DNA of 64,000 nucleotides from Crambe crambe (taxonomy: Eukaryota > Porifera > Demospongiae > Poecilosclerida > Crambeidae). Shown here one piece after another: positions 11,360 to 60,158 of this stretch; positions within the stretch are counted from its first letter, which is position 1, and every line of letters starts with the position of its first letter. The stretch covers positions 4,226,139 through 4,290,138 of the forward strand of contig OZ004596.1 of the NCBI GenBank assembly GCA_963924555.1, given 5' to 3'. The position numbers were made by a program, and so were the translations under genes. The notes beneath the pieces are model-generated. The model did not search any database and had not been told where the DNA came from. It saw nothing but the letters and a program-made list of their open reading frames with translations.

Positions 11360-11832
11360 TGAGAATCAATAGCAATCAATGATGCTCCATCACCATCACC
11401 TAATATAAGGCACAACAAACATATAAAGGCACCTGCAACATGAGAATAGAATTTCAGGGGAAGATATGAGCATAACTGGATAAAGTATCAGCAGTTTTCT
11501 CCTAGCGCTTCTTCACACTGCCGCCATGCTGATAGCTAATTAGAAAGGAATACAAGCAATATTATTTTTAGTACTTTTCAAAGTTACCAAGCAAAGTGGG
11601 TGAGCCACACATTGACAGCAAAAATAAATACTAGCTAATTATAAAAATCAATAATAAATTATATTTATTGTGTTATTCTGTTTTTCAACCAGATTCTCCA
11701 TCACTGTTGTCCATCCAAGACTGCAGGGTATTTCTCTGCATGGAGTGAATAATTATACAAATGATTGTTACTGAGATGAAATCTTATCACTGACAATCAT
11801 GAGCAGTGGTCCATGATAATTATCCTGCACAG
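11217..11832. other. 3' flank of the copy A gene, with poly-A tract
   Basis: It contains a poly-A run at about 11322-11356. A possible terminal exon of the copy A gene lies at about 11695-11735 (minus strand, TTGGATGGACAACAGTGATG, ending in a stop). The equivalent in copy B is near 37030-37065. The splice link to the death-domain exon is uncertain, because that exon can also end at its own stop. Confidence 0.4.
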
Positions 11833-14800
11833 CTATAAATTACCCTTAATTGTACCTTGTATTTTTCTTATATGTCCATAAAGTCTCAGTTCTTGGAGTC
11901 CTTTGGCCAGTTCCCTCCATGTTGGCATTTTATTTGCACAAAGCCTCATGACATAATCTTGCATCATCAACCAAGCATTAGCCATATCCATGTGGATGGA
12001 GCCTGGTGACATTCTATCTATGGTAGCTGGAAGGAGACCCAATGCTTGGCCCAATTCTTTCACTTGATTTGGATTAAGATCAGCAATGATAGTTGAAACT
12101 TGGAAAGTATGCTCAACTCCTGTAAGTCATAGAATTAGTGTGTAGCTACCAAACACTTATGGAGGAGTTAAATATCGATGTGAAGCTAAAAACGTGTGTA
12201 AGATGAGGTCTCTTAAATTATGAAGGCTAAGGAAAAAACTAAGGGCATTAGTTAAGACATTCACATAATAAGTTTCCGATTTCTGTCCAACTGTGTATGA
12301 GGAAGAGAGTGTACTAACTCACTTAGTTCAGTAGTTCCATCGATCCTTCCCAGGTCAGTGGGCTCTGTGGAGGCTTGCACAATACAGGAAGCTATATATA
12401 GTATAATAGTGAACACATGATTTCTGTTACTGGATGGCTCAATTCAACATGATTTGATTCATGATTTTGCAGATAAGTCCAAAGCTCATCAGCAAGCTGC
12501 ATGCATTATAAATGAGGACAATGAAGTATAGCTGTGTATTAAGTACAATTTCACAGCTGAAATTTTTGCTTTGAGGGCAATAAATTCAAATAACACTCTG
12601 GTAGTGGACTAACTACTGAAAGTATGGAAACTGACCAGGGAATAGTCTGCTTGACTAGTCCAGTAGTGCCTGAATTTGTCAGTACAGTTAGTACAGGGGG
12701 AGGGTCTGGTGAAAGTGATCCTTTCAGGCATAATTAATGCACAAGGCAATAGTAGTTCTGAGCATGTAAATTGCTAAGTATAGCTATGTATCATCCAATG
12801 GAATAAAAGGAAGTTGCCATCATTCAGTAGCATACATGAAAAGATGTTGCTATACCTGGTGGTGGTACTGTAAAAGTGCATTCTTCATCAAGTCCAATTA
12901 CTCTCAGTGTGAGAGGTTCTGATCTATTTGGAGAGAAGGTGATTTGGATTCTAGGAGGGAAATCTGACATCCTTGAAGCACTCCTATAGTTGGTCTCAGG
13001 GAAGTCAATCTCTCTTTTTTTAATCTATACAAAAAAAGATGCATCACTGAAGTGTCTACAAAGCTTCACAATATTCACACCAAAATGTGAACATTTTGTG
13101 TTTTTGGTGTGTTGATGCAAGATGACTATAAATGCTTACTTTGTTTTTATCCATTGTACATTTCCCTTCAAGAGTAACTTCTTCACTTTCCATTGTTAAA
13201 CAATTGTAGACAGTACGGCATTCAGCTCTAGATGTTATTCCAGTGTGATTTTGGGGGATATGCTTATCACAATGCTGCATAATTAAGCAGATTCAAAGAG
13301 ACAGGTAGCTACTGTATGAATAATGCACATTACCTGTATATAATATGCATGCTCAGGACACATGCAAAACACAGCAATTTTTGCATCCATTGTTCTATAA
13401 AGTCTTGCTGAGTATAGAATTTGACCTGATTCAAAAAGATAGTTAAATTAAAACAAACTGTACTTTATAGTTAGCTACCTCTTATCCTCCTTCTACTAAA
13501 TATTCTCCACCAACTGAAATTGATTAGTTCTATTTCCCCATATTGACTTCGAAATTTTCCTTTGACTCCTTCTCCTTCCTCTTCCTTGAAAATATAAACT
13601 GGATCAGGTCCTCTATATTCTGGAACTGAACTGGCCCTCAGAAACACCATACTTCTGCAATCATTTTCATTTTTTGTTCTAATATAATGTTGCATCTTCA
13701 CTAAAAGTGACTTTTTCAACTCTATTTTCTTGCTTGTTTCTATGAGATAGGCTGGACTAGCTGGCTCAAAACCCTTTGGCGTTTCAAAGATTTCATTAAA
13801 ACTAGGCTGGATAACTAGCTCCACAGACTCCATTGGTGAGATTGAGCCTTCAGGAATGACTATAGATAATCCCATATCATCTCGATGGTCTACTTCTTTT
13901 CCTGCATGTGGGATTTTTTCAATGACTCTTGCACCATTGGTGCTTATAATTTCATCTTCACAGAAATCCATCCCTGCAATATAAGAAATTTTTGGGGCAT
14001 AGTTAATAATAATCAGAGGCCATTTCTACTGTAGCTACTTCTGCCTGCACACTTGCAATGGGACTATGATTATCATTATACTAAGCTGCAACCATATGGC
14101 ATACCATCTATAATGCAATGTTTTTCCTCATAATAGTCGAGTAAATCATTCCATGTTTCATCATACCTCAATAGCATCTGGTTACCTGCATTACAATAGA
14201 TGGAAGTGGCTAGCTTGCATGGACATGGATAATGTAAACATTCACATAGTATTATAGCTATACTCAGTAGCAAGCTACGTACACATGCATGCATGTATTG
14301 GTATCATAAAACAGATTGTGTGCTCACCGATGATGACAAGACCATACTTGCTCCTAGTGATGCCCACATTGATCTTATGCTTATCAGTGATGAAGCCAAG
14401 ATGTTCGCTCAGCCACTCCTTGTCTGCCAGCACAAGTTGTGAATTCTTGATCTCTTCTCGAGGTCGTGAGCGCACGGTAGACAGAATGACAATACCATAT
14501 TCATCTCCTAAGGAATTTTGATCATTAGCAGTAGCTATGGCAGTATTAACACTATATATAGTCATACTAACATACTAACCTTGGCTCTCGGTAATGGATG
14601 CTACTTTCAATTGTGAAAGTGTTCCTTTCAATTTCTTTACCATCTGTATAATTATATTCTTCTGTGCAGAATAAGGAGTCAGGACAGCAATTTGATCTAT
14701 TTGTACTTGGTGTTTCCAATGGAGAACTCGAACAATCTCAATCTGCAAGAGTTTATTACTGTTATACACATAATATATTACTTAATTTTGCTGACCACTT

Positions 14801-17800
14801 TTTTAGCCTCTTCCTCATTGAACTTTGAATCAACACCAATGCTGGCATCTTTACTCCCTGTTGGATCCTGTCCTTCCTTTCCAACTACATCCACAAACAT
14901 GATAGGACATTCCTCCCCCTGAGGCCAAAACCCCTTCAGTTTTGCTTCAGGGTTTGTACGCCTCTTTACAGAAACATCTGTTTCCAATTCACCCTTATAG
15001 AACTGCTTAGATGGAAAAGCACATATTTCTTCATGCTAAAATTAAAAGAAGCAATAAGTTACAATACATTAAAATATCAAGATATTACCATTCTGTATTG
15101 GGTTTTTAAAGTGAAAATATATTCCTCTTCCTTATAATTCTTTGCATATCTTTTGAACAGGGAGGTAGAGAGACCACATTTTCTGGCCTTCCAATAAACA
15201 ATCACTGGTTGGAGTTGCATGTGGTCCCCAATGAGGATTGCATGCTTACAGAGGCTAATGGGAACCATGGCTTCAGGTTCAGAAGCCATCCCACATTCAT
15301 CAATAATGCACTGATGGGGGGAGAGATTATTTCTCACTCGATTGCCTGCAGCTTCAATGCAGGTACAGAATATTATATCAAACTTTTCCTGTGAGAAAAC
15401 TTTTTTCTCAGCTTCACTTAGTGCTTGTCTGTATCTTTTGCACAGGATTCCATTGGCAATTTTACCATCCTTGCTCATTGCTTTGATATTTTCTTCATAC
15501 TCTCTGAGAATTACAAATTCTCTTTCACTTCTATTGGGTTGTCGTATCATATGATGCAAGGCATATTGTTCTGCCCATTTAGGGCAGTGAGTGTCATCAG
15601 ATTCTTGTTCAGCCGGATCTCCTTCGCAGGATTGTTTCTCTTTTTTGTATTTGGGGAGCGGATAATCATAACTTTTCCTTTCAACGACTTTGCTGTAAAT
15701 CCTCAAAATCTTTAATTTTGAGGATTTATCATTCTTTAGTAAGCGATGAAATTTTTCTGGAAGGAATTAAGAGATGAACAGGTATGTATGATGTTATAGC
15801 TTACAATACATCTCATACCGAAAACAACATCAACAGATTTGTTTGAAGGTCCACAGTAGAGCACACATCTGTTGCCATCAGATACCTCTTTATTCAGCTT
15901 GGCCAGCACATATGCTATGCGTGTTCCAATTACACTTTTTCCCGTACCTTTAATCAATAATCATAAGCATGCAGTGTCTGATGCAATTATTGTTACATGT
16001 ACCTGGTGGTCCCTGGATCAACTGAAATGGCTTTTCTAGTGCTTTACCCACAGCTTCCTCCTGCCACACATTCAAATGCTGTAAATTAGAGGTCTCATCA
16101 CCCCACTCAGATATAGATGTAGCAGCAATGTGCTTAGAAAATTCATTAGTAGAGTCTATACACATAGAAAACAATATAGCTAATTATGCTTATAGACTTG
16201 TAGATGTAATCATTTCTATCAACCTTTCATTTTGGAATGATTCACTGCAACATTATTGGCCAGTGTGAATAGCGAGTCCTTAAGTGACAACAATACTCTT
16301 AACACTTTCCTACAAAGCAATAAACAATAATTAATACTTATTGCACACTCCTGCGGAGGCGGAAAATAGAGCCTGGTACCCACTGTTTGCGCATGTGCCA
16401 AAAATTCCCGCCTATTACACTTTATGACGGTGTGTGATGTCACAACATGTAACTACGTGTATGAGCATGTGCTATAAGATACCAAGAAATGAAATTCTCT
16501 AGCTCTGGAGAAGAGAAGACAAGTGTGAAATACTGTTAACTATCTATGTGTTGACAATCCTTATTACTCTGTATTGTGTGGTTAATTCTGTACTGTGTGG
16601 TTAAATCATCTGTTTGTGGTTTTTCTTAAACGTATTTATCTGTGGATTTACTCCCGGTCAATTCAGTCTCTGTTTTTTGACTCATTTTAGTCTCTTAGTC
16701 TCTGTCATTTTGGTCTCGGTTGAAATAGTCTATATTACAGTTATTACTCGCTACGTTACAACAAGACTGGCACTTTTAAAACTATTCATAGTGGCAAGAA
16801 TATCTTTATCCATAAGCCGCTCTCCCTTAAATCCAGAGGAGATGATCACAGCCTCAGCTCTGCACTATTCCCCAACGAATAAACGAATGGAGAGAATTGC
16901 TTGCTGCTGCTCCTTGTTCAGTACTAGGTGGGATTGTCCCAGCCGAGATAGGGCGTAAAACAAACACCGTCCGCGAAGAACTGGTGAACTAGAGCTAGTC
17001 TGCTGCAGTGCTGATTCAGCAATATTGCGTCATGCGTCACGGAAGATTACTGAGAGATTACAATCCCCCCAACTATGGGGGAAAATTGGCACATGCGCAA
17101 ACAGTGGGTACCAGGCTCTTTTGTCCGCCTCCGCAAAATTAGAGCCTGGGGACGAGGCTAACTCCTGTGTTGAATATCATGATTTATTACTACCCGAGGT
17201 GGGAATATTTCACGAGGCCGTAGGCCGAGTGAAATATGCCCAACCAAGGGTAGTAATAAATCTGATATTCAACAACGGAGTGTGCAATAAGCATTTTATT
17301 ATATATATAAGTGGATTCTACAGTTGATTCCAGCCAGGCAGCTACATATGCCCGTGTAGGAAGTTGTAATGTGAACCTGTAATACTTACCACGAAGAGCC
17401 TATCACCTACAGACAACTAAGATAAGCCAACGCACTTTGACAAACCGCTGTAGAATTCAATTAAGCTTGCCTATCATCTTCAGAAATGTCGGCCAAAAAC
17501 GTTGGGTAGACAAGGCGTTAAATAATGCCATTGAATATCATGAATTATTCAACGGTAACAGACCAATCAGACCACGTATATATAATAATAATAGTTATTG
17601 CATAACCATGATACTTACCTGTAGGAATAATTTAGTATGATAATCTGCACTTCACAGGTGGACTCCTCAGCTTCCACAACACACTTCATACTTTCAGATA
17701 CTTGACAGTTAGCTATGCCCACAGGCTTCATGAGAATGGTTACTTCATCTGGTATATCATCAATAATACGATGGACCACAAAGTGGAAGACAGCTTTCAC

Positions 17801-20800
17801 TGGGTGACGGGGGTCAGTCCCATACCTCACGCACACAAGTGTACCTATGTTCACTTTGAAAAACTCATGACACTGATCGCTGAAATCCTTTGGGAATGCC
17901 ATCTCCACATAGTCATTTGGAACATAGTAGTATGGTTTTTCGAAACACTCTTCTGGGATAATTAACTTAGGCCACTTTAAGTAGACATCACGAATGATCA
18001 CAGGATGTGACTCCTTTATTGATTGCTCAGCTGCCTCTGCGAGAAGTACTGTCTTCCATAAGTCAACATACTCTTGAATACTGACATATTCTGCTTTGGA
18101 AGCTTGCTTTAAGTTGGGATCAGAGAAGCACTCTGCTGGGTGGGAGTTGTGTTGGACACAAATACGTAGGAGAGGTGAAAGTTCCACCAACTGGATGGCA
18201 GGAGAGATCAGTGGTTCTCTCATGGACTTAGTCAGCCAAACCTTGAGCATGCTGGAAGTTTCTAAAGATACTTTAATACTGCAATCCAGGAAGAGGTACT
18301 TCTTCTGTGGTTTTATGAAACCAGCTGAATAGGAAGAAGGCCAGTGAGGTAGGTCTGGTAAAAATTGCCCAATTCTGTCCATTTTTTCTTCAGTAGGATT
18401 CTTTACAAACTGAAGTGCCTCTTCCCAGTTACTTGGAGAAATTTCTACAACCAGATTTTGTTGGGAAGCTTTAAAATACTCGATATCTAATGATGGAACT
18501 GATTCCAAGCATTGTCCACAAAAAGCTTTTATATTCGAATCTGCAAAGCCAGAAGAATTAATATTCATAAATAGAGAAGGTGACTTCAAAATTGATGCAG
18601 CAAGATCATCATTCTTTAAAGACGTCACATGTATTCTCCACAAGTATAGCTGAGAATCAGGCTGGTCATCTGCTACTTTTTCTGGGATGAGGTTATTAAA
18701 TCTCAGTTTTCTTGCACTGATGGGTAATTGCTTGAGCTCAAATTGAGGAAATGCCAGTTGTATTGTTCCTTTTAGAGACTGACTGATGAAACAGGAGTAC
18801 ACTTCACTATAGGAGGACACAAGTTTAAAAGCAAGTTTTATGCTTTTCATCTCCTGTTCAAATTTGGAAGCACTACTAATTTTTCTGTTCATAAAAGTGC
18901 AAAGTTTAGTGTGCTCTTCATGCTCCAATTTGCTTTCAACTTCGGGATCTTGTTTTGATTCTTTCAATATCATTCGTTGTACTTCAATATCTACATATCG
19001 CCGCAAAGGAGATGTGAAGTGTGTATACTTATCTAAGCATAAGTTGTCATGGCGATACACAGATGCATTATTTTTATCTTCCTTTGTGCAATGATACTCA
19101 GCATGTGATAAAATAGAGTGTAGTTTTGAACTAGCAGCAGCTAGTTGTGGATAAAACTGGTCAGTAGAGAGCAGGCTGGTGAGAAGAACTAGGTTTCGAT
19201 CAGACAAAGCTTTATGGATCTTCTCAAGAGTGTCAACAGGAATTTTAAAAGGAACACCAGCAGAGGGCCTTTTCACACCTGAAGTTTGCAGGTAGTGGGA
19301 AAGGTATAAGGAATGAAGCATAACATTCTTGTTTTCCTCCACATATTTTCTTATCTCATCAATGTTGGGAGATAGTTGTGTCTTTAAGATGGCTGCATTC
19401 GGGAAGAAAGAGTGGATATTTTTGGCTGCTTCACTATTAGCCCATATCATAAGCTCTTCTACCAGCAAATGAGACTGCCAACAGAGGGACTCTTCATAGT
19501 CATTACATTTATACACAAATGCTGCATCTGACTTGAGCCTTCTATGACGCATAACACGGGTGATGTCATAAAGCAACTTCATTGCTTCATGGAGAGGAAG
19601 ATTTTCCTTGTCGTGATTAAACATCCTGTTAGAATCAATATATTCTGTGGGAATTTTGCCATCCAGTAGGTCTTGAGCATCTTCATAAGTCAACTGAATG
19701 GCTGACTTGATTTGTGATGCTTCAATTTGAATATTACTCAACTCAAGTGATGCAGGAGCTTGGCGGTCAATTGTGACTGTGCAGGTAACAGATATGACAT
19801 CCCTTATTTTTCCAGGAGTGAGAGAGAGGCAAGATCTTGTTTCGTATGGCAGCATGTGCATAACTTTACCTTGCTCTCCACCATAAACAGAAATGCCACT
19901 ACTTCTAGCAATTTTATCAGGCTCATTGCTATGCATTACATCAATATGCTTAGCTGCATTCACTACATGCACACCTAACTGGAATTCTTCAAGTTGACTT
20001 TCATCCCTAATTTTGACTATAGAAAGAGCATCATCAAGGTTTTGTGCTTCTTTACTGTCAATAGTAAAGGCTTGATTGTAAAAGTTTAAAGTTTTGTCTC
20101 TTTTTACTTCCTTGGCATCACCCTCACTTATGGACTCATCTTCATTATATTCAACAGCATATTCAAGCTTTAGCAAACGCTCTGCATTGAATGGAGTGTA
20201 CCCTTTAGGGTATGCACCTATGACAATGCCAAGAGGGCTACGATACTTCTTCCCCCACTTCACTAAGGAGACGAGAAAGACCATCTCACGAGCAACGTAC
20301 AAAGGGATGAGTTGCTTAATTTGGGGCAAAGAATTATCTACCTCAAGGGAGTTAGGATCAAAAACAACAACATCACCACATTTTAGATCACTTTTGATCC
20401 TTTCTTTGTTTATCCCATCCTTTCTTTTCGATAAACGAGGCAGATTAATCATGCTTGGGTTCTTTTTATCAGTAGGATGGAACACTATAGGGTTGGTATG
20501 TGATACTGTGCACACCAACCTCACCTCACTGTCCCGTTCAGCAGTTAAAATGCGCCCATAATGCTTATCCTGAGGGCTATCAGGAAATATACCCACAGTC
20601 ACTCGATCACCATCAAAAGCTCCTTTTCTGTTGTCAATGCCTTGTATCTTCACATTTTTTTTGCTACTGTCAATTGGAATAGCTTCTGCTTCACGTATGG
20701 ATTCTATCTTTAGAACACAGTCATAAAATTCTATGTATTCAGCATCATCAAGTAAAGCTTCTTCTACTTTGTCCTCATCACTTTCCTCCTTCAAACTCCA

Positions 20801-23800
20801 AGAAAGATGAGCTCCTGGAGTAGTCATTAGAGTGAGCTTTGTTTTTTTATTTTCATGCAAGTTTTCAAACACTTTCTTGTATGCTTCAATTATACTGTCC
20901 ATTTTGTTTGATTTATTTCTTATACTGCCAATCTTATTGGATTCAGAATATATAAGTTGCAATAGTTTACTGGGTTTAAAATCTCCAAGTGATTTTGAAT
21001 TTCTCAGCTGCTCGGAGTAGGCGAATGTCTTGCACTCAATGCACTGTTTGATATAAGGTGCCCAGCATTGAGCATTTTTCTGATACTTCATCATCATGTG
21101 CTTCTCCATCTTGAGTAGCAGGAATGGGTTGCCAACAGCAACCACTAGTGATCGAGACCTGGTGATGGCAGTATTAAAGATATAGCGATCAGATACACTC
21201 TTGGTTTTGTTGATAGATTCTCCATCCTTAGAAGTTTCTTCAGATGTAGAAATAAATATTGCTCTGAACTCCACACCTGTACAGTAAGCCAATAATAGCT
21301 TAATACGTTGGCATTATAATTATCATAATACGGATTTACCTTGAACATCATATGTTGGGCGTATTGCTATATCCTTTAAGTTCCTTATCTTTGTAACTTT
21401 CTTTCTGATAATAGAGCACTGCAAAACATCAACATATCATGGAATGAAATTCAATGATTCATTAGTTTAACTACCTGATCAGCTGAAGGAGACATGATAC
21501 AGACTTTTTTAAGGTCCTTTTCACCCCAGTGTTTAGGCCAACTGTTGCAATACTTCTGCACTTCCTTTAATAAAACATCTGCTTCCACTTCATTGGTTCC
21601 AGGTGTTGACTTGTTGTCATCTGACACATCGGAGCATACAAAATTGAGGGGGAAAGGTGAAAGATGATGGGCTTCATCATCTGGCACTTTACATAACACT
21701 GTAGACTCATAATACAGACTGGATGGTAGCATCAGAATCCCACTATGGCAACGATAGTTGGTGAGCAGAGTAACTGAGTGAGTACTAGATAGAGGCATTT
21801 TGCTATAAAGGTCATGTAATCTCTCCAAGAGTGATACTCCCAAGCCATTATTTTGAGCCTTATCTCCTAGCACCAATAAACGAGGACCAACCTGCACAAT
21901 CATAAACATCAAAATAATAGTCCATTATGACTAGGAGTGGTCAAATTAAAAATATACCTGACAATGATCACCAGCAATAACAATTCGTGTATACTCCCCA
22001 GCAAAGCAGAGAGGTCCAACAGTTTCAGGTTCTCTAGTTTGAGCTCCTTCATCAATCAAAATATCAGTGAAGAAATACTTTGGTGTCTTGCGTAGAAGAG
22101 AAGGTGCAGTACCTAGAGTGGTGATGACTAATCGCTCATTTTGTAACTGCTTGATTTCATGCTTCGTTTTGTAATACTTTTTATATGTAGGATTTGCAGG
22201 GCGATAAAATCCACCAGGAGTTACACGAATGAAAGTGATAGGCCATCGCTTATTTTCATCACTTTTCATTTTACCAAAATATTCCACAAAAGTATCAGCT
22301 GATGCTTGATGATGAGCACAGATTAAAACTCGACTATTCTTTTTTCTCAATATGTCGTAAGCAGCTCTGGCAAGTAAGCGTGTTTTGCCTGTACCAAAAG
22401 GTCCAGCGATAAGCAATGGGGTGCTGGCATGAGGGTGATTCAAAATTGTATTCAAAGCTTTTAATTGCATAGAATCCAAATCCAAGGAAGAATAAGGTGG
22501 CTTGGGACTAGAGCAGCTTTGATCTGATTCAATAAGACTATTCTCACAAGGAATTAACTTCTCCACTACTGACTTTGGAAGTCTATTTATGAAGGAGTGA
22601 AGCATTTGAAAATAGGAATACTTCAATTCAAATTCTATTTGTCCCTGAAACTCGAATGCTGTTCTCTGAAACTTCATGCATGACATCTTCAACTTTTGAG
22701 TTTCACTCTCAGTGAAACCAACTGTAATGGCATTAAAGTTGGCACTGTGTGGAACATAAGCATGGACATTGTGTGCATGCACAAAAGATCCATCATCTAA
22801 AATAATGAATGATCCTTGACTTGCTTGCTTAGCATTACTCAAATTTTCCCCATCATCAGACGTGATATATCCAAAACGCACATATTTTTCCTCATCTTCA
22901 TATTGAGTACCATATTGAGTACCATCAGGAACAAAGTTGCGAGGATAAATACGGATATCATAAACACCATTATACCTACAAGAAAAGTGATGATATGATA
23001 TTTATGGATGATAATAGTGTATACATACCTTTCTGCTAACTGTCGAGCATGTTCTTCTTCCTCGTGGCAAAGTAAGTGGTGAAACTTTTCTTTGTAGTTT
23101 TCTACTTTTAATTTTTTCTTCAAAATAGCATCATTCAACCTATTCTTGTACTTTTCATATTCTGTAGAATACTTAACAGGAGCTGGTCCATGGACATGTA
23201 AGTTCTCTTTTCTCTTCCTTGTTTTCTCTTCTTCTTTGATAATTTTAACTTCTTTCTTTGTTTTTTTAGAAGCATCTTTTAATGACTATAAAATCAATTG
23301 CAATTTTTAGGTGAACATATAAACCTGAATCATAACTTACAGGGTACTCATGAGATGTTTTACTCTCAGCAATTGACTCTACCCATCCCTTTTTATCACC
23401 AATGGAGGTGTCTTGTGCTAGTGATTACAACAAAACAGTGAACTCAATGAAGTCATAAGTTATTAAAACTCACATTGGGCTCTTTGAGTCACCACAGGTA
23501 TACCAGAAGCAGCATAGTTGATAAGTCTACCAGAAGTAGTAGGGGGTCTCACGATAGCTGCATTATGTTGACCAGAAGAAGCAATTGACATTATTCTGCT
23601 CTGTGATGGCTTAGTTGCATTAGACAATACAACAGTTGAAGTTGTGTTTGCTGCTGATGATGACCTGGGTAAATATTGAAATATTTAGAATGTTGCTCTC
23701 TTCACCCCACATAACTGTAGGTTTCAAACTTACTTTACTTTTGTTGAACTTCTAATTGGAATCCTCTGACAACCACTGGAGATACTTTCCCATAATTCCC

Positions 23801-26800
23801 TCATATAACAAGATTTATCAACTGGACTGAGCATAAAAACATCAGGGATTATAAAAGTCTTATTTTCCAAACATGTCTTCAAGTAAGTGCTCCAACACTT
23901 TCCCTTCTCTTTATATGTCTTGACCATGTGCTTTTCAATGCCCAAGAGAGCAACTGGGCAGCCAACTACCACTACTAAGGACTTGGCACGTGTCAGGACA
24001 GTGTCGAAGATAAATGGGTCACAGAGACTTTTGGTAGGATTGGTTGTGTTGCCAGTTTCATCAACTGGTTCTGTAGTGCTCATGAACAATGCTTGAAACT
24101 CCTGCCCTACATTATTTATTTTAATGAAAAAGCTACTAAATATTCTTAAAACCTTACCTTGAATTTTGTAAGTTGTTAGCATACGAATAGTGCTTAATTT
24201 CTGGAACCTCTCACGTGCTATATGTCTTGTGCGAACAAGCTGCATATAAACAATATACTTATATGCATGCAGTTATTATAATTAAACCAAATCACCTGAG
24301 TCTGTGAAGCTGTCACCAAGCATGCTTTGGATAAATCTCTTGCACCCCAGTTATCAGGCCAGGAATGCACTACAAATTTCTCTACTTGTTGCAGGATAAG
24401 TTGTGCTTCCACCACATTGTCTGCTGTAGGACCAAGGCTTGAGCAGACAAAGAGCAATGGAAATACAGCATCAGGGTGATAGTGAGGTTTCTGAGGACAA
24501 AATTTGACTTTATTTTTATAAAAGAGCTGGTTTGGAATTTTCATAATGTCTGGATGGCAACGATAATTAATACTGAGGGAAGCCATATGGCCTAATGCTT
24601 GATCACCACATTCTTTATACAAGATTTGAAGTCTCTCTAGGAGCGAATACTTCAAACCATTCTCACGAGCTTCTTCTCCTAATACTAGCAGTGATGGTCC
24701 CACCTACAATCAGAATAAATAAAATAGCTGTGTATTTTAATTATAGCTAATTTTTAACTAACTTGATTTGAGTCTCCTGCAATTACTATCTTAGTACCAG
24801 GAGCAGCTAGGCAGAGTGGTGTTATATTTTCAGGTTCTCTGGTTTGAGAGCCTTCATCCAGAAGAATGTGAGTGAAAAATCCAACCTCATACACAGAGGA
24901 GAGAGACGCTGCAGTGAGAAACGTAGTCACCACAATAAAATATCTTGGAGACTTCCAGTGATCAGAGCTCCCTTTTCTTTTGTAGTACCATTGAAACTTT
25001 GAGTTCCTGACATTATACGAGCTTGAAATTAGTCGAATAAGACTAACATTCCATGGATTATGCTTATCTGTAGTCATTGGACCAAAGTACTCCTCGATGT
25101 AATGATCAGCTGAAGACTGATGATGAGCACAAATTAGAACCCTCACAGGTTTTTGGCGGTTTCTTCCTTGCTCAACAAGAAAATGCGCAGCAATGGCAAG
25201 TAGTCGTGTCTTACCTGTGCCGAATGATCCATCCACAATAACTGGAGGTGACCTTGGATCACTAGAAAGAATTTTGTATAGAGCTTGAAGTTGATCATTC
25301 TGTAAATCATGTGGTATCTGTGATAATAATTTATCCACATGTTGACTAGAAAAAGGCAGGAAATCTTGAGATGATGGCATTATCCTAGCTATGGTCTCTG
25401 GTCTAATATTGTTTATAGTTCTTATCAAACCATTGAAGTAGGAATGCTTAACCTCGAACTCGATAGTCAAATTTTTCAGAATTTCTTCGCCTTTTGGTAA
25501 AGGTCCAGAAATAATTTCTGATAACTTTCCTTCATCTTCGTCCTTAATGGCAATATACATCTTCTCATCGCAGTGGTTGTAATTTTCCTGGAGTATCTCT
25601 ACTGCTACTTCATATTTTTTTCCTCCCCTTCTTGTGACTATGAATGCTCCTTCACTAGACTGAGTAGCATATGCTATTTGGTCTGCACTGAGGTTTGAAA
25701 AATACCCATATCGCATGTGGTAGTTACTTTGAGATTGTATCCATTCTGGCTTTGATTCAGATTGAAATAAATATAAGTCACATTCCTGATCACACCTGGA
25801 TAATAATATAACAGTCATTAGTCTCAGCTGTTGATGTGATATATGTTATAAATCAGTATATATAAAGCGAATTGGCAAAACATTACAAATTGAACAATAT
25901 AGCTAAATTTAGTACCTGCAAATAACTACCAGAAGAATCTATCATTAACATACTTTTCTCTGAGTCGGTCAATATGTGTCTTCTCTTCCCAACAAATAAG
26001 ATTATAAAACTTCTTCTTATAGTTGAATTTAGTAAGCTCCTCTTCAATAGTTACTAAATCCAACACTTTTTCAATTCGTTTTCCAAATTGTTCGGGATAC
26101 CTTTCTGTCTGTTTTGGGGTGACATGAATAGGTAGTGTTTGGATAGTATTTGGATGAAGTGGAGAAGGATGAGCCAGAGGAGGAATAAGTTGGTATGGTT
26201 GAAAAGGTTGTTGAGGAAGGCCTGGAGTCTGCATACATGCATGTTTGCAAGAAATTATTAAAGAAAAATCAGTTGTAGCAATTTGATCTCATACCATAGT
26301 TGCATAATTTTCAGAACCTTAAATTTTGAAGTATACTATGATTAATAGGACTTATTTTTGTAGCAAGCCCATGAAAAATACGCATGTATGCACAATTTAG
26401 GATATCACTATAGTCGTTTGATTTGTTTGTCTGTCACTGCAAGAAGTGAAAGGTGTGGTTTTCGGTAGGCAGGGAATATATTTTTAACGGTATACATTGA
26501 GCCATCTTCACTTCTTTATCTAGAAGTATAGATATGGCCAAGAACTTATAGACATTAAATAGACAAATGCATGCGCACATGTATGCATGTGAAAGCAATC
26601 ATGCATGCATGAGCATCCAGATGTATATGTATAAACGAATTAACTAACAAAACAACTGCAAACAAACAAACAAAAACGATGAAATTAACGTAAATATTAA
26701 ATGTCAAATAGCTCCAATCTAGGGGATGATAGAGGCTATAGGATGGCTTGAGAATGGGCAACAGTGAGTAGTAGAATAAGATCAGACCAACTTATGCAGC

Positions 26801-29800
26801 TTTCATAAATCTTCCTGATACAGCAACTTCTATAAGTGATAGTTGACAAACCAACACAGCAAAAAATATCCAAACATTGGCTCCAGCTAAACCGGAGCCC
26901 TTGTACATGGATAATTTTTGCCTAAGTTTTTTTTTTTTTTTTTTGGCTGGCTGCGGTTAATCTTTATGGCTACGAAAATTCAGCTGGTTACCATTGCGAG
27001 ATAATCACCATCTCAAATTGGATATAGCCAAAAATTGGTTCCTTGCTTCTCACATCTTTCAGATATGCTACATGTTAACATTTTCCAATGATTAGTACAT
27101 GCTTTTGAGTGCAATTTGGGTATAATTGCATGAGAAACTGGCTAGGTAATTGCATGAGGTGAAGCCGAGTGCAATTTTAGACAGTTTTGAATGCAATTAT
27201 ACCAAAATTGCATGAAAAAGCCCTTTTAATCATTATTAGCAGCTAGCTATACAATTATAATGGCTATCAATGATATTGCATAGAGCCTATCAGCTCTAAA
27301 GCTATAGGAAAGTTATTTTCATCAAATGTTCATTGAATACTGGCTCACTCACTCACTATCAAAATTATCAGAAGGCCAGCTCACCTGTATTCCAGCTATC
27401 TGACTTGACACTGCACTGGCTGTATGTCCTGAGAATCAAAAGAAATAACCTATCAAGAGTCAATCACAGTGTACAGCTAATATAGTACCAGACTACGAGT
27501 GATTTCAAAGCTGAAACATAACCAACTAAAGAAGTCATGATTGATAATAAATCCCTTACCTGAATGCTGTACATGAGACCTTAACACTTGATTCCATTCC
27601 CTCTGCTCTGCCTGTCCATGAGCATAAGTGCATTCATCCCTTCTGCAAGTTCCCTTCCTTGGATCACACATCGCAACATTTTTTATGTGGCCTGGAAAGT
27701 GTGGTGGGATTTTTCGAATAGACCATTCAGTGGTTTCCAGCCTTTTCTGCCTCTCATTCCACACAACAAAAAATCCATCAGGAGATTGAAAGTGGGGACA
27801 GTCCACAATAGGAAAAATGTAGCGGTACCTATAAAAGCACTCACGGCAAATGAAAGCTTGGCCTTTGGGAGAGAAAGAGCGACCTCCTATAACCACCAAT
27901 CATAATAATTATTATGACAATCTCAGAGTGTGAATGTTGGACATTTTTAATTTAGATATTTGTTGCTATTATAATTATTACTGTGATCAACTTATTATTA
28001 TTCCTGCCCCCCCCCCCCCCCCCCCCCCCAATAAATTTCCTATTCCTACTCCACTGGAGTAGCTCTCAGACTAATGTTATGTTTTATGGCTAAAAAGTAC
28101 TTAACTCTGGCACTGGAGTGCTGAGAGCAACTATGGCTATGGTACATGTGTTGCAATTCATGGGTCCCCAGTAATCATGAAAAAGCCACAAACAAAAAAG
28201 TAGTTCTGAAAATAGCTAATAACCCTAAATGCACCAGCCAATTTACATATCCAGTTCATTGGTTGTGTCCTTATGAATAATACAACAAAAATACATAAGT
28301 GGCTAAATGTTAAACAGCTTCAAGCAAAAGACATGACTTTCTTGCTGTCTGTTGGTCTGTTCACTATTTCTATTTATATCCCATGTGTGGGCGAGATCAA
28401 AGGGCCGCGGTGTGGTTTATAAGCCATAATGTCCGTCTTCATGAACGACGGACATTATGAGTCATATTGTCCGTAGTCCATGGAAATAACATTTAATCTC
28501 CATGGAGACAAGAAAGCACGGCCGCTAAAGCGTCAATTTACTGTAGCTAGCCTAGTCTATACTCGCCTTAGCTAGCTATAGCAGGATATAAAATAGTTAT
28601 AATATGGGTGTCAGGGGGTGTTATTTTTAATTGGTGTGTTTATATTTTAATTTTTGCAACCAATAATTATCATAGCAACAGTGTTTTTATCTCTTACAAG
28701 TCAGCTAAAAATGCATCAATGTCAAAGTCTAGTTCAAAAGGCTGTACTTCAGGTGGCTGAAAAGGTCCATGGAGTGGTACTTGTGGTGGTAGCATAGAGG
28801 GCATGCTACTTTGGCAAAATACCACACTGCAGCCATGGAAATTGTATGTTGGAGCAGAAGCAAGAGTGGAAATAGCTGTGCCAGGAGCATTATTGCACTT
28901 CAGTTTGCAAGAAACTGGTACTTGAAACTCCTCTTTTTTTTTGTAGATGAAAGAACCTTGCACACAGCTTGCTGTTGTTCAATTGTGGTTTGTTCATACT
29001 GCTGAAGACCTGGTAAAGAGCGGTGTCCTGTCCATCGCTGGATAATTTTTAGAGTAGACTGTTTTTGGTGGGTACTCATTTCCATTTTGCTTGTGAGTTT
29101 CTGCAACATAATAGAGCTATAATCACTTGTTGAAAGATGCAGCATCAGCAGATTCTAGTAGTTGGTGAGCGAAGCGAGCCACTCTCTGGTCATGTCAACG
29201 GGAGCTCAATATATATATATATATACGTACGTCAAAAAATCATCATTGTGCATGCGCTGAACCAATTGCTAAGCGACAACAAAGACTCATTTTAATATTG
29301 ATTAGCAAAAACTAATCTTGTGAATTTGACGATTAGCTACTATAGTATGGAGCCACCAAAGGCTAAAAAGAGAAAAAAGGGGACAGAGAATGAGATAAGA
29401 ACTAGGCTGGACGAAAGAAATGCATGTGTCCCTCCCACTGCATGTCACACCCAATAATTTTTTTGTGTAAACTGCATGTATGTGCATGAGGACATAACTT
29501 CACATTATCAACATTGCTTCGCTCGCCCAACAACGCTTTACAAGCGATTCCTAGTTCATCTGGAATTTGCTTCTTGACATTATCAGCAAAGTGTAGGTTT
29601 CTACTTTGCTTCCAGGAGGTAAAATTGGAGAAAGCCCATTATTTTTTGGCACAAATTTCTTTGTCAGCTTTCCTCCTCGCATTCGTCTATGAACTCCCAC
29701 CTTTCTTGATGCAGACAAGGCTTTTTGCTGGCGCTATAGGAGCTTCATTCTCTTTCTCAGCCATTCTTCAAAATGGTAACTAGGGAGTAATAATTTCCGC

Positions 29801-36692: not shown

Positions 36693-37190
36693 AAAAGAAA
36701 GAAAAGAAAAGAAGAATCAATAGCAATCGATGATGCTCCATCACCATCACCTAATAATTATAAGGCATAACATGCAACATGAGAATAGAATTTTAGGGGA
36801 AGACATGAGCATAACTTGATGAAGTATCAGCAATTTCCTCCTAGCACTTCTCCACACTGCCACCATGCTGATAGCTAATCTAATTTTTAGAAAGGAATAA
36901 CAAAGCAATATTATTTTTAGTACTTCTTCTCAAAGTTACCAAGCAAAGTGGGTGAGCCACACATTGACAGCAAAAATAAATACTAGCTAATTGATTTTTA
37001 CAATTATTTATTGTGCATTATTCTCATGATACTTCAGATTCTCCATCACTGTTGTCCATCAAAGACTGCAGCTGGGTATTTCTCTGGAGTGAATATACAA
37101 ATGATTGTTAGCTACTAGAGATGAAATCTTATCACTGACAATCATGAGCAGTGGTCCATGATAATTATCCCGCACAGCTATAAATTACCC
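36662..37190. other. 3' flank of copy B gene with poly-A tract
   Basis: Colinear with 11320-11830 of the first unit: a poly-A run at 36662-36690, then unique sequence with a possible terminal coding exon near 37030-37065 (minus strand). Confidence 0.45.
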
Positions 37191-40100
37191 TTAATTGCAT
37201 GTACCTTGTATTTTTCTTATATGTCCATAAAGTCTCAGTTTCTGGAGTCCTTTGGCAAGTTCTCTCCATGTTGGCATATTATTTGCACAAAACGTCATGA
37301 CATAATCTTGCATCATCAACCAAGCATTAGCCATATCCATGTGGATGGAGCTTGGTGACATTCTATGCATGGTAGCTGGAAAGAGACCCAATGCTTGGCC
37401 CAATTCTTTCACTTGATTTGGATCAAGATCAGCAATGATAGTCTTAACTTGGAAAGTATGCTCAACTCCTGTAAGTCATAGAATTAGTGTAGCTACCAAA
37501 CACTTATGGAGGAGTTGAATATCGATGTGAAGCTAAAAAGCATGCGGGATGTGTGTGTAAGATGAAGTCTTTTAAATGATGAAAGCTAAAGGAAAAACTA
37601 AGGGCATTAGACATTCACTATAAAGTTTCTGATTTCTGTCCAACTGTGTATGAGGAAGAGAGTGTACTATATACTCACTTAGTTCAGTAGTTCCATCGAT
37701 CCTTCCCAGGTCAGTGGGCTCTGTGGAGGCTTGCACAACATAGGAAGCTATAGATAGTGAACACATGATTTCTGTTACTGGATGGCTCAATTCAATTCAT
37801 GATTTTGCAGATAAGTGCAAAGCCCATCAGTGAGCTGCATGCATTATTAAATGAGGACAATGAAGTAGCTGTGTGTTAAGTACAATTTCACAGCTGAATT
37901 TTTTTCTTTGAGGGCAACAGATTTCAACAACACTCGGTGGGTATAGTGGACTAACTACTGAAAGTGACAGGCAGGGAGTATTCTGCTTAACTAGTCCAGT
38001 AGTGCCTGAATTTATCAGTATAGTTATAGTACAGGGGCAGGGTCTGGTGAAGGTGATCCTTTCAGGCATAATTAATGCTGAGCATGTAAATTTCCAAGTA
38101 TAGCAGTGGCGGATCTAGGGAATACTCATTGTATTCGAACGAACTACCCCTATTAGCTGGTTGTCTAGACTTTGTTATTGCAGCGTTGGCCCTCAGGCGC
38201 AATGCTAAACTACCGCCAGTAGTGTATGTCTGTATATTTAACAGCATGCCACCCACAATGGTTTGTATTAGCTGGCTGGGGCATGTTTGTATATCTAACA
38301 GCATGCCACAAGATTGTCTGTGTGCATTAGAATTGCTCAAAAAGACTCTACATCAAGTGGGCGCAAAAGGGTGTGGTTAAGAAAAGTGGGCGTGGCTAGG
38401 CCAAAATTTTTCCACGCGTAAGCGCGCAGATAATATAAACTACCCCTTTAAAAATCCTGGATCCGCCCCTGTATAGCTATGTATCATCCAAGTGATTAAA
38501 AGGAAGATGCCATCATTCAGTAGCATAGCTACATGAAAAGATGTTGCTATACCTGGTGGTGGTATTGTAAAAGTGCATTCTTCATCAAGTCCAATTACTC
38601 TCAGTGTGAGAGGTTCTGATCTATTTGGAGAGAAGGTGATTTGGATTCTAGGAGGGAAATCTGACATCCTTGAAGCACTCCTATAGTTGGTCTCAGGGAA
38701 GTCAATCTCTCTTTTTTTAATCTATACAAAAAAAGATGCATCACTGAAGTGTCTACAAAGCTTCTCAATATTCACACCAAAATGTGAACATTTTGTGTTT
38801 TTGGTGTGTTGATGCAAGATGACTGTAGCTAAATGCTTACTTTGTTTTTATCCATTGTACATTTCCCTTCAAGAGTAACTTCTTCACTTTCCATTGTTAA
38901 ACAATTGTAGACGGTACGGCACTCAGCTCTAGATGTTATTCCAGTGTGATTTTGGGGGATATGCTTATCACAATGCTGCATAATTAAGCAGATTCAAAGA
39001 GACAGGTAGCTACTGTATGAATAATGCACATTACCTGTATATAATATGCATGCTCAGGACACATGCAAAACACAGCAATTTTTGCATCCATTGTTCTATA
39101 AAGTCTTGCTGAGTATAGGATTTGACCTGATTCAAAAAGATAGTTAAATTAAAACAAACTGTACTTTATAGTTAGCTACCTCTTATCTTCCTTCTACTAA
39201 ATATTCTCCACCAACTGAAATTGATTAGTTCTATTTCCCCATATTGACTTCGAAATTTTCCTTTGACTCCTTCTCCTTCCTCTTCCTTGAAAATATAAAC
39301 TGGATCAGGTCCTCTATATTCTGGAACTGAACTGGCCCTCAGAAACACCATACTTCTGCAATCATTTTCATTTTTTGTTCTAATATAATGTTGCATCTTC
39401 ACTAAAAGTGACTTTTTCAACTCTATTTTCTTGCTTGTTTCTATGAGATAGGCTGGACTAGCTGGCTCAAAACCCTTTGGCGTTTCAAAGATTTCATTAA
39501 AACTAGGCTGGATAACTAGCTCCACAGACTCCATTGGTGAGATTGAGCCTTCAGGAATGACTATAGATAATCCCATATCATCTCGATGGTCTACTTCTTT
39601 TCCTGCATGTGGGATTTTTTCAATGACTCTTGCACCATTGGTGCTTATAATTTCATCTTCACAGAAATCCATCCCTGCAATATAAGAAATTCTGTGTGAA
39701 ATGTCACATTTTTGGGGCATAGTTAATAATAATCAGAGGCCATTTCTACTGTAGCTACTTCTGCCTGCACACTTGCAATGGGACTATGATTATCATTATA
39801 CTAAGCTGCAACCATATGGCATACCATCCATAATGCAATGTTTTTCCTCATAATAGTCCAGTAAATCATTCCATGTTTCATCATACCTCAATAGCATCTG
39901 GTTACCTGCATTACAATAGATGGAAGTGGCTAGCTTGCATGCACATGGATAATGTAAACATTCACATAGTATATAGCTATACTCAGTAGCAAGCTACGTA
40001 CACATGCATGCATGTATTGGTATCATAAAATAGATTGTGTGCTCACCGATGATGACAAGACCATACTTGCTCCTAGTGATGCCCACATTGATCTTATGCT

Positions 40101-43100
40101 TATCAGTGATGAAGCCAAGATGTTCACTCAGCCACTCCTTGTCTGCCAGCACAAGTTGTGAATTCTTGATCTCTTCTCGAAGTCGTGAGCGCACGGTAGA
40201 CAGAATGACAATACCATATTCATCTCCTAAGGAATTTTGATCATTAGCAGTATGGCAGTAGTAACACTATAATATATATAGCATACTAACCTTGGCTCTC
40301 GGTAATGGATGCTACTTTCAATTGTGAAAGTGTTCCTGTCAATTTCTTTACCATCTGTATAATTTTATTCTTCTGTGCAGAATAAGGAGTCAGGACAGCA
40401 ATTTGATCTATTGGTACTTGGTGTTTCCAATGGAGAACTCGAACAATCTCAATCTGCAAGAGTTTATTACTGTTATACACATAATATATTACTTAATTTT
40501 ACTGACCACTTTTTTAGCCTCTTCCTCATTGAACTTTGAATCAACACCAATGCTGGCATCTTTACTCCCTGTTGGATCCTGTCCTTCCTTTCCAACTACA
40601 TCCACAAACATGATAGGACATTCCTCCCCCTGAGGCCAAAACCCCTTCAGTTTTGCTTCAGGGTTTGTACGCCTCTTTACAGAAACATCTGTTTTCAATT
40701 CACCCTTATAGAACTGCTTAGATGGAAAAGCACATATTTCTTCATGCTAAAATTAAAAGAAGCAATAAGTTACAATACATTAAAATATCAAGATATTACC
40801 ATTCTGTATTGGGTTTTTAAAGTGAAAATATATTCCTCTTCCTTATAATTCTTTGCATATCTTTTGAACAGGGAGGTAGAGAGACCACATTTTCTGGCCT
40901 TCCAATAAACAATCACTGGTTGGAGTTGCATGTGGTCCCCAATTAGGATTGCATGCTTACAGAGGCTAATGGGAACCATGGCTTCAGGTTCAGAAGCCAT
41001 CCCACATTCATCAATAATGCACTGATGGGGGGAGAGATTATTTCTCACTCGATTGCCTGCAGCTTCAATGCAGGTACAGAATATTATATCAAACTTTTCC
41101 TGTGAGAAAACTTTTTTCTCAGCTTCACTTAGTGCTTGTCTGTATCTTTTGCACAGGATTCCATTGGCAATTTTACCATCCTTGCTCATTGCTTTGATAT
41201 TTTCTTCATACTCTCTGAGAATTACAAATTCTCTTTCACTTCTATTGGGTTGTCGTATCATATGATGCAAGGCATATTGTTCTGCCCATTTAGGGCAGTG
41301 AGTGTCATCAGATTCTTGTTCAGCCGGATCTCCTTCGCAGGATTGTTTCTCTTTTTTGTATTTGGGGAGTGGATAATCATAACTTTTCCTTTCAAAGACT
41401 CTGCTGTAAATCCTCAAAATCTTTAATTTTGAGGATTTATCATTCTTTAGTAATTGATGAAATTTTTCTGGAAGGAATTAAGAGATGAACAGGTATGTAT
41501 GATGTTATAGCTTACAATACATCTCATACCGAAAACAACATCAACAGATTTGTTTGAAGGTCCACAGTAGAGCACACATCTGTTGCCATCAGATACCTCT
41601 TTATTCAGCTTGGCCAGCACATATGCTATGTGTGTTCCAATTACACTTTTTCCCGTACCTTTAATCAATAATCATAAGCATGCAGTGTCTGATGCAATTA
41701 TTGTTACATGTACCTGGTGGTCCCTGGATCAACTGAAATGGCTTTTCTAGTGCTTTACCCACAGCTTCCTCCTGCCACACATTCAAATGCTGTAAATTAG
41801 AGGTCTCATCACCCCACTCAGATATAGATGTAGCAGCAATGTGCTTAGAAAATTCATTAGTAGAGTCTATACACATAGAAAACAATATAGCTAATTATGC
41901 TTATAGACTTGTAGATGTAATCATTTCTATCAACCTTTCATTTTGGAATGATTCACTGCAACATTATTGGCCAGTGTGAATAGCGAGTCCTTAAGTGACA
42001 ACAATACTCTTAACACTTTCCTACAAAGCAATAAACAATAATTAATACTTATTGCACACTCCTGCGGAGGCGGAAAATAGAGCCTGGTACCCACTGTTTG
42101 CGCATGTGCCAAAAATTCCCGCCTATTACACTTTATGACGGTGTGTGATGTCACAACATGTAACTACGTGTATGAGCATGTGCTATAAGATACCAAGAAA
42201 TGAAATTCTCTAGCTCTGGAGAAGAGAAGACAAGTGTGAAATACTGTTAACTATCTATGTGTTGACAATCCTTATTACTCTGTATTGTGTGGTTAATTCT
42301 GTACTGTGTGGTTAAATCATCTGTTTGTGGTTTTTCTTAAACGTATTCATCTGTGGATTTACTCCCGGTCAATTCAGTCTCTGTTTTTTGACTCATTTTA
42401 GTCTCTTAGTCTCTGTCATTTTGGTCTCGGTTGAAATAGTCTATATTACAGTTATTACTCGCTACGTTACAACAAGACTGGCACTTTTAAAACTATTCAT
42501 AGTGGCAAGAATATCTTTATCCATAAGCCGCTCTCCCTTAAATCCAGAGGAGATGATCACAGCCTCAGCTCTGCACTATTCCCCAACGAATAAACGAATG
42601 GAGAGAATTGCTTGCTGCTGCTCCTTGTTCAGTACTAGGTGGGATTGTCCCAGCCGAGATAGGGCGTAAAACAAACACCGTCCGCGAAGAACTGGTGAAC
42701 TAGGGCTAGTCTGCTGCAGTGCTGATTCAGCAATATTGCGTCATGCGTCACGGAAGATTACTGAGAGATTACAATCCCCCCAACTATGGGGGAAAATTGG
42801 CACATGCGCAAACAGTGGGTACCAGGCTCTTTTGTCTGCCTCCGCAAAATTAGAGCCTGGGGACGAGGCTAACTCCTGTGTTGAATATCATGATTTATTT
42901 GGGAATATTTCACGAGGCCGTAGGCCGAGTGAAATATGCCCAACCAAGGGTAGTAATAAATCTGATATTCAACAACGGAGTGTGCAATAAGCATTTTATT
43001 ATATATATAAGTGGATTCTACAGTTGATTCCAGCCAGGCGGCTACATATGCTCGTGTAGGAAGTTGTAATGTGAACCTGTAATACTTACCACGAAGAGCC

Positions 43101-58900: not shown

Positions 58901-60158
58901 TAGTAACAACCTGTGTGTGGTAAATATCACTCATACTACATGTACTGAGAGAAAACTTTTGGCCAGTGATTACTATAATGTGGAATAATACACAGGGATT
59001 TTTTAGATTCTGGTGAAGGGGCAAATTAACAAGGCATTTGAAATGGCTATTGAACTTGAGTCCAGCTTGGGGGGGGGGGGGGGGGGGGGGGGGGCAACAG
59101 TATTTTAAAGGGGGCACCTAGGAAAAAAAAAACACCCAATGATTGTTGTAAGTCTTACCACTTTGGTTTGGATCCAACCAGCATCAAGACCAAGAGAGCA
59201 ATCCTCTTGTGAAGATTCCACTTCTCAATGGCCAGGGCCATCATCAAGCCACCCACAAAGAGCATGTTGCTGTCCTTGAGGTAGTTCCTGGCAGTGTCAT
59301 TGGCAGAGAGCACACCAAGAACAGGAAAGAGGATGAGTGGAAGAAGAGCCGTGATAGCAATGGGGACTACTTCGGTCACCCAGTACACAGCTATGATGAT
59401 GATGGCATACATTGCTTTGGACTCCTACAATACAATAATAAACAACTGCTACCACTCCACCATGATTTTTAATGTATTGTCAAAATGCCAATCAAGTAAG
59501 GATCTGTACATACAACATGGCATGTACATACGGTAAAGTGGGATAATTCTGAATAGCAGGGTAAGTTCAAATATTTCTGAGACTTCTCAGCTCAAAGTTG
59601 GATAATATAATCTACTATGACTAGCTCATAAGCTTGAACCATTCGTAATTATCCCACCGTTTGGAATTATCCCACTTAGCATGCATGTAGCTATTATGTG
59701 GAGACATGTATCATTATCATAAGGTAAGGTTCTCACTCACTTGTGTCTTCCACACGAGAGGTAGCCAGAGGAAAATCAGGGGAGGAAGAATAACCACTAT
59801 GGTCTTCCACCAGCTCTTCAGGAATTTAGTCACTGGATGCTGTTTACATCGACTACACTTGGATACTGTCTTGGCAACAGCAGCACCTGTGTCTGCACAA
59901 AAATCAAGTACAGATGCCAGATATGTATGCTACTATACTAGCTTGCTCTGTGCATATGTGGTGGCCTCATAACAACTCTTATACTAATACAGCATTGTGC
60001 CTACCTCCATTTTGAGAGGGTGATGAAAGGTCGTCTTCAGTCTCCGTTTCTAAAAGAGACTGGTGAGCAAGAAGCGCTTCAGTATCAGCTACGGAGCTCT
60101 CTGGACGGTTCTCCCTGTCACTACTCCTCTCTATCTGTGTACTCACTCTGTCAACCAT
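55975..60158 (-). CDS. SLC13-type sodium-coupled anion/carboxylate symporter
   Basis: Multi-exon membrane transporter of the DASS/SLC13 family, which co-transports sodium with sulfate or di- and tricarboxylates across the plasma membrane. The first exon (60006-60158) is a charged cytoplasmic N-terminus ([20 protein letters not shown]). Later exons carry [20 protein letters not shown] and [20 protein letters not shown] (about 59158-59427), the first SNT motif [14 protein letters not shown] and the family signature [18 protein letters not shown] (about 58376-58915), [15 protein letters not shown] (57137-57255), the second SNT-like motif [15 protein letters not shown] (about 56930-57086), [19 protein letters not shown] (about 56395-56531) and a C-terminus ending DSGNITAS at 55975. 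A long hydrophilic loop lies between the first SNT motif and ANIGG. It appears intact. Confidence 0.88.
59069..59094. repeat. Poly-G tract in an SLC13 intron
   Basis: An uninterrupted run of about 26 G residues. It is prone to assembly error and could form a quadruplex. Confidence 0.7.

Follow-up and report, generated by a model that had tools for sequence, protein, structure and literature searches.

In a 64,000-nucleotide stretch of the genome of the sponge Crambe crambe (hereafter the window; C19:4226139-4290138), two minus-strand gene copies, WIN1 and WIN2, carry a HELZ2-like core of SF1 helicases and an RNB exoribonuclease domain, followed by a tail of ZU5, a UPA-like stretch and a death domain, a type of tail known for setting off cell death and inflammation. 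Judged on genomic signs alone, core and tail very probably form a single chain, in which the HELZ2-type RNA engine would run into the tail where a phase-1 junction follows the last exon of helicase 3. The 143 Mb of genome searched (119 contigs) holds at least 14 HELZ2-like genes, and six of them, all in one cluster and including both window copies, are tailed. We favour the reading, at a probability of roughly 0.55, that HELZ2-type RNA machinery has here been turned into a receptor resembling PIDD and NLRP1, a function that we infer from sequence.

Gene structure and domain content

The spliced model of WIN1 runs on the minus strand from 27886 to 11833 and comprises 27 exons with all phases matching, 3,704 codons and a single terminal stop. 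It confirms the consistent minus-strand splice joins described in the initial annotation, and its ends coincide exactly with the outer limits given there (11833 and 27886). At its 5' end the model begins with the phase-1 acceptor of exon 1, without an assigned start codon. Introns measure 51-158 bp except for introns 2, 14 and 26 (1,156, 1,309 and 736 bp), and exon 19 has two possible donors, both of which keep the frame. Candidate upstream exons at 28.7, 29.4 and 29.6 kb were dropped, having no convincing counterpart at other loci. The domains follow the order CCCH finger, SF1 helicase 1, helicase 2, HELZ2 OB fold and RNB, helicase 3, ZU5, UPA-like stretch and death domain:

27560..27886, minus: exon 1, CCCH-type finger (CX8CX5CX3H-like); spliced model, Pfam zf-CCCH below cut-off, conserved at paralogs
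23734..25795, minus: exons 4-7, SF1 helicase 1, Walker A at 25207-25230; AAA_11 57.4 and AAA_12 34.9 bits
21340..22975, minus: exons 11-13 and start of exon 14, SF1 helicase 2, Walker A at 22381-22404; AAA_11 71.2 and AAA_12 41.6 bits
17619..21276, minus: exon 14 (3.66 kb), HELZ2 OB fold and RNB exoribonuclease domain; RNB 146 and OB_HELZ2 32.7 bits
20024-20068, minus: intact RNB catalytic motif D-x7-DD in exon 14, read as a motif
14105..16155, minus: exons 16-22, SF1 helicase 3, ending in CIID and a phase-1 donor that replaces the ancestral stop; AAA_11 73.4, AAA_12 44.8 and 39.4 bits
13974..14104, minus: junction intron 22, 131 bp, phase 1, without AATAAA or ATTAAA; spliced model and signal scan
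13479..13973, minus: exon 23, ZU5; homology to a Pfam-passing ZU5, alignment
13504-13521, minus: candidate self-cleavage site NF/SWW in exon 23; alignment
12856..13425, minus: exons 24-26, UPA-like stretch; position and exon phases common to other ZU5 genes, without profile support
11833..12119, minus: exon 27, death domain of the window type and stop; hhalign match (94.6%) to death domains of Pfam grade, own Pfam score of 14.5 bits under the cut-off
11664..11669, minus: AATAAA 3' of the death exon; signal scan

Exon-by-exon comparison with WIN1 located the second copy as follows:

37178..52663, minus: WIN2, exons 2-27
43320-46974, minus: WIN2 RNB
39825-41866, minus: WIN2 helicase 3
39180-39674, minus: WIN2 ZU5
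38553-39126, minus: WIN2 UPA-like stretch
37178-37468, minus: WIN2 death domain

WIN2 matches 26 of the 27 WIN1 exons, and 23 of these 26 keep AG/GT ends and a length difference divisible by three; the exceptions are exons 8 and 9, a repetitive linker beyond the resolution of the method, and exon 27, which differs at its 3' end. No counterpart of the WIN1 finger exon was found in WIN2. The repetitive linker between helicases 1 and 2 (49119-49502 in the window) differs in length between the two copies, with AASGRPVVRPPAM-like repeats in WIN2. Intron 14 is about 1.3 kb long in both (16310-17618 and 42021-43319) and holds similar sequence in both, probably a shared insertion.

The remaining tailed copies are G4085, G4107, G4142 and G4172 (loci L017 to L020). 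For each copy 26 exons were tried, and only those aligned at both ends were counted, partly aligned or unmatched exons being left uncounted. AG/GT ends, frame and openness are kept in all such exons of G4107 (19/19), G4172 (17/17) and G4085 (13/13). In G4142, 18 of 20 pass; its exon 11 is frameshifted, exon 18 holds a stop and the RNB exon is split, and this copy is a pseudogene. Chance open frames were rejected as an explanation, exon ends, frames and openness being preserved across WIN2 and the other copies.

The core of WIN1 bears out the HELZ2-like assignment of the initial annotation: helicase, RNB and helicase all exceed Pfam cut-offs, with one more helicase in front. AAA_11 and AAA_12 pass in all three helicases, whose Walker motifs look intact by eye, and the RNB domain (146 bits) is flanked by SF1 helicases. 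The CCCH finger scores 16.2 bits against a Pfam cut-off of 20.5 and is conserved at paralogs; five paralogs have MMSRRLGDQAFICREC in common in this exon, and the WIN1 exon is without the MMSRRLGD start region of the paralogs. In the DNA covered for G4107 and G4172 no finger exon was found. In humans, HELZ2 is induced by interferon and acts in RNA decay, and the sensors that use death folds are other proteins. Human HELZ2 is not known to have a ZU5 or a death domain. It shares with WIN1 helicases on either side of an RNB domain with D-x7-DD, and the HELZ2-specific OB fold (PF25049) is over its Pfam cut-off in WIN1 (32.7 versus 29.3 bits); in contrast, the scheme in the available part of PMC9839780 has two helicases, whereas WIN1 has the extra front helicase and the ZU5-UPA-death tail. 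In another sponge, Dysidea avara, two HELZ2-annotated transcripts are reduced under symbiont treatment, according to the accessible passages of PMC11229196. The HELZ2-like copies that we read have an Asn six residues after the first catalytic Asp (20024-20068 in the window, and paralogs), the DIS3-like locus L001 an Asp.

The tail domains required more indirect evidence. Pfam searches of the kind proposed in the initial annotation put AAA_11/AAA_12 and RNB over their cut-offs, left ZU5 (15.5 bits versus 21) and Death (14.5 versus 22.6) below them, and gave no UPA match in the spliced stretch or over cut-off anywhere in the genome. Because the direct scores of ZU5, Death and CCCH are all sub-threshold, an isolated hidden Markov model test would have rejected the tail. 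However, C6:4623335-4623793, a place that itself passes the Pfam ZU5 cut-off with 24.6 bits, is 56% identical to the window ZU5 (E 2.4e-43), and the assignment is therefore secure by transitivity. Against the Protein Data Bank (PDB), the ZU5 profile (A1) and the ZU5-UPA profile (A3) found no ZU5, the latter without any match. Profile-profile comparison (hhalign) relates the window death exon to Pfam-grade death domains (Prob 94.6, E 7e-8); a profile of only three near-identical window-type exons reached 5.9%. A nine-sequence death profile alone (A7) found no death domain in the PDB, and a seven-sequence profile that includes Pfam-grade members (A2) found FADD, CRADD, RIPK1 and ankyrin (E 0.001-0.02), below top matches to repeat proteins that we take for artefacts. 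The tails of G4107, G4172 and G4085 close with death domains that pass the Pfam cut-off. Of the tail originally proposed, ZU5 and death domain thus stand; the putative UPA has no Pfam or PDB match, its stretch being placed by position and by exon structure and phases shared with other ZU5 genes.

One chain or two genes

RNB occurs at 23 places in the genome, including one DIS3-like gene and fragments; trees were built for 14 HELZ2-like copies whose RNB exons are long. At nine loci (L009-L015, L021, L022) the downstream DNA covered gave no tail at E up to 0.01 (about 1.4 kb past the last exon for L021), and at all nine a stop closes the last helicase exon, for example directly after CIVDNDRYFQRLDRSL, CIVDAHQFPRKS or CVVDSAHFPIKVSL. 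In all six tailed copies, the corresponding exon reads CI(I/M/K)D and then GATG|GTATGCC, a phase-1 donor, and the ZU5 acceptor is likewise phase 1 in 6/6.

The structure could instead represent two adjacent, co-duplicated genes: a HELZ2-like gene ending in GMPYGCSLV and a short ZU5-UPA-death gene starting from the ATG just inside the ZU5 exon. Five of the six tailed copies do have that ATG, the G4085 junction intron is 2,416 bp long with one AATAAA and one ATTAAA, and ZU5-UPA-death adjoins many other kinds of upstream sequence in the genome. We nevertheless find two genes very unlikely. The gap is just 131-150 bp in WIN1 and WIN2 and short in G4107, G4142 and G4172, and none of these five junction introns contains AATAAA or ATTAAA; a poly(A) signal does follow the death exon, as AATAAA in WIN1 and WIN2 and as ATTAAA in G4107 and G4172. 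The donor is conserved but the read-through end is not (GMPYGCSLV and stop in four copies, GMPYGCS and stop in G4172, about 20 more codons in G4085), and G4085, which lacks the ATG, yet keeps the phase-1 acceptor. Helicase 3 and tail, moreover, have a single history. In the helicase 3 tree (314 columns, 14 rows) the six tailed copies form one clade with support of 100/99, whereas in the RNB tree (764 columns, 14 rows) they do not: G4085 falls among four tail-less copies there (100/100), and the tail label has to change twice. The difference indicates that tail and helicase 3 have been passed on together. The predicted fusion is supported by this joint inheritance, by the splice phases, by the missing ancestral stop and, in five of six copies, by a short junction intron free of poly(A) signals.

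ZU5 genes outside the family offer a comparison. Of five relatives (L027-L031), all spliced at sites chosen by eye, four have a phase-1 ZU5 acceptor; the site chosen for L031 is phase 0, and a phase-1 site may lie just upstream of it. In L028 and L030 the ZU5 exon is internal, since ankyrin repeats precede it in the same open frame. These two genes share with the tailed copies the exon phases and 54-60% identity in ZU5-UPA, and a Death exon follows the tail of L028, but they have ankyrin repeats upstream where the tailed copies have helicase/RNB.

Shuffling of the tail and its death domain

As a module, the ZU5-UPA-death tail has been shuffled widely across this genome, where the window ZU5-UPA has 141 matches, Pfam ZU5 109 and Pfam Death at least 150 (150 of 965 candidates scored). 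Adjacency was counted on subsets rather than as a census (116/141 ZU5-UPA matches, 57/150 window-type death matches and 22/150 Pfam Death matches): 15 of the 57 window-type matches lie at most 5 kb downstream of a same-strand ZU5, versus 7 wrongly positioned pairs, as do 4 of the 22 Pfam Death matches. These counts are supportive.

Within the cluster, G4107 and G4172 have a ZU5 nearly identical to that of the window (synonymous divergence, dS, 0.05-0.07) but a different death domain, for which dS to the window type is saturated or above 2 and which is closer to the death domain of L027. The G4085 tail, 428 residues in frame to the stop, ends in a third death domain (31.8 bits). Three different death domains on related tails indicate that the output domain has been exchanged between copies. 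Between WIN1 and G4172, dS is 0.053 in ZU5 versus 0.337 in a helicase-3 exon, and this contrast, together with the differing death domains, indicates that parts of the tail have been moved or homogenised by recombination. One recent duplication as sole cause of the shared architecture was rejected, given two tail types about 40% alike and three death types. Further death-domain sequence lies nearby: an exon at L019:181-651 (C19:4133755 area; 36.8 bits), about 1 kb after that locus's own Death exon, and a minus-strand match at 33535-33723 of the window, downstream of a tailed copy (E 4.3e-6 in the genome scan); these may be separate genes or additional exons.

Fusions of a comparable style are already known. 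Marine invertebrates have TRADD-N joined to UPA-ZU5 and to RNA helicases (MOV10, DDX60, RLR-like), and the available passages of PMC8195603 report this joining of apoptotic adaptor modules and RNA helicases as a theme; those proteins are, however, built on TRADD-N, and no HELZ2/RNB-ZU5-death chain appears in these passages. NACHT-ZU5 proteins are described in early animals in the portion of PMC12909245 available. A search of open-access papers, which leaves out most subscription literature, found none in which a helicase, HELZ2 included, is joined to ZU5-death.

Possible function

The domain order of the WIN1 tail resembles that of PIDD1, UNC5 and NLRP1/CARD8, in which ZU5, a UPA-like region and a C-terminal death domain follow one another in like order; N-terminal leucine-rich repeats, immunoglobulin domains or NACHT occupy the place that RNA helicase and RNase hold in WIN1, whose UPA is without profile support. 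A little better than even odds attach to the tailed chain being a sensor with a death-domain output. In such a sensor, the helicase/RNB part would bind abnormal (viral or transposon) RNA, and ZU5 would keep the UPA-death part silent and might cut itself at F/S like PIDD, NLRP1 and CARD8. Engagement or destruction of the N-terminal part would free the UPA-death fragment, which could then assemble and recruit a death-fold adaptor or caspase.

Whether ZU5 is self-cleaving seems to us evenly balanced. According to the accessible sections of PMC3210808, CARD8 and NLRP1 cleave themselves at SF/S and PIDD does so at HF/S, where ZU5 ends, and changing the residue before F has a small effect in CARD8. 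At the same place, all ten aligned ZU5s carry F, with S next in nine of them and C next in G4085, a resemblance to the known sites; N, D, H or S precedes the F.

The RNase active site bears on the direction of signalling. Every tail-less copy that we read, eight in all (L002-L008, L011), has D-x7-DD intact, as do WIN1, WIN2 and G4085, but it is replaced in three of six tailed copies, by D-x7-NN in G4107 and G4142 and by D-x7-DN in G4172; C3:6841904 and degenerate copies were left out of this reading. The HFTSPLRRY motif is intact in WIN1, WIN2 and G4085, and a pattern search for it gave PLQRY in G4172 and no match in either G4107 or G4142. Because G4107 and G4142 are sisters in the RNB tree, there were at most two independent replacements, too few for statistics. 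Mutation of D1346, D1354 and D1355 to N inactivates human HELZ2 (PMC9839780, in part). Loss of these residues in some tailed copies would fit a change of role, from destroying RNA to sensing it.

The opposite polarity is conceivable, with the death domain as an input that recruits helicase and RNase to an activated death-fold complex, where they destroy RNA. The intact aspartates and HFTSPLRRY of WIN1, WIN2 and G4085 would suit an effector of this kind, as would the exoribonuclease activity of human HELZ2 described in the available text of PMC9839780. We consider it unlikely, since G4107, G4172 and the pseudogene G4142 have catalytic residues replaced while the ZU5-death tail stays open, and since the C-terminal death-fold part is the output in PIDD, NLRP1 and CARD8 (PMC3210808, passages available).

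The tailed copies may also be mostly non-functional by-products of tandem duplication and recombination, the fusion having no selected role. The broken state of G4142, the WIN1 finger exon without the MMSRRLGD start region and the failure to find this exon in WIN2 are in keeping with decay, and so is the window Death exon, whose ratio of nonsynonymous to synonymous change (dN/dS) is 0.7-2.5, with few changes and no clear constraint. Decay is nonetheless quite improbable: both-end-aligned exons of G4107, G4172 and G4085 show only frame-preserving indels, the architecture recurs with two tail types and three death types, and dN/dS is 0.24-0.54 for one helicase-3 exon when the tailed copies are compared without G4142, and 0.16-0.27 when the window ZU5 is paired with G4085, L027 and L030. 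The helicase-exon values for G4142 are invalid, its in-frame stop having probably been dropped by the aligner with a shift of codon register.

Several observations count against the receptor that we favour. Besides the absence of clear constraint in the death exon and the junction features already given (the ATG in five of six copies and the long G4085 intron with its two signals), comparison of the five close copies gives ZU5 dN/dS values of 0.44-0.94 wherever the ratio is defined; no UPA match supports the middle of the tail; window-type tails have N or D, not H or S, before F-S; and the RNase aspartates survive in half of the tailed copies, so RNA decay may still matter.

Other features of the window and genome

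Minisatellite-like repeats at about 8.9-9.8 kb of the window yield open reading frames (ORFs) on both strands (HTHPVASLRAIK and similar), and minus-strand ORFs at 58370-59424 resemble, by eye, an SLC13-type transporter gene. Another large family in the genome consists of single-exon SF1 helicases with ORFs of about 1,100-2,470 amino acids (C18:2.77-3.11 Mb, C6:4.28-4.32 Mb, C1:3.15 Mb and C21:3.69 Mb), some of which, on C6, lie within about 10 kb of a ZU5 gene.

Implications

In its fullest form our proposal is tentative and somewhat doubtful: a receptor family with N-terminal RNA engagement, a self-cleaving ZU5 latch and a UPA-death output, in which death-domain swaps might reach different partners and some copies might have given up RNA decay through the catalytic pair mutated experimentally in human HELZ2. 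If the favoured reading is true, SF1 helicase/RNB surveillance of RNA would be wired directly to a death-fold output; none of the papers that we found describes such a route. The paralogs, with and without tails, with DD, DN or NN at the active site and with three death domains on related ZU5-UPA, would then offer a ready series in which to ask if RNA decay can be uncoupled from signalling.

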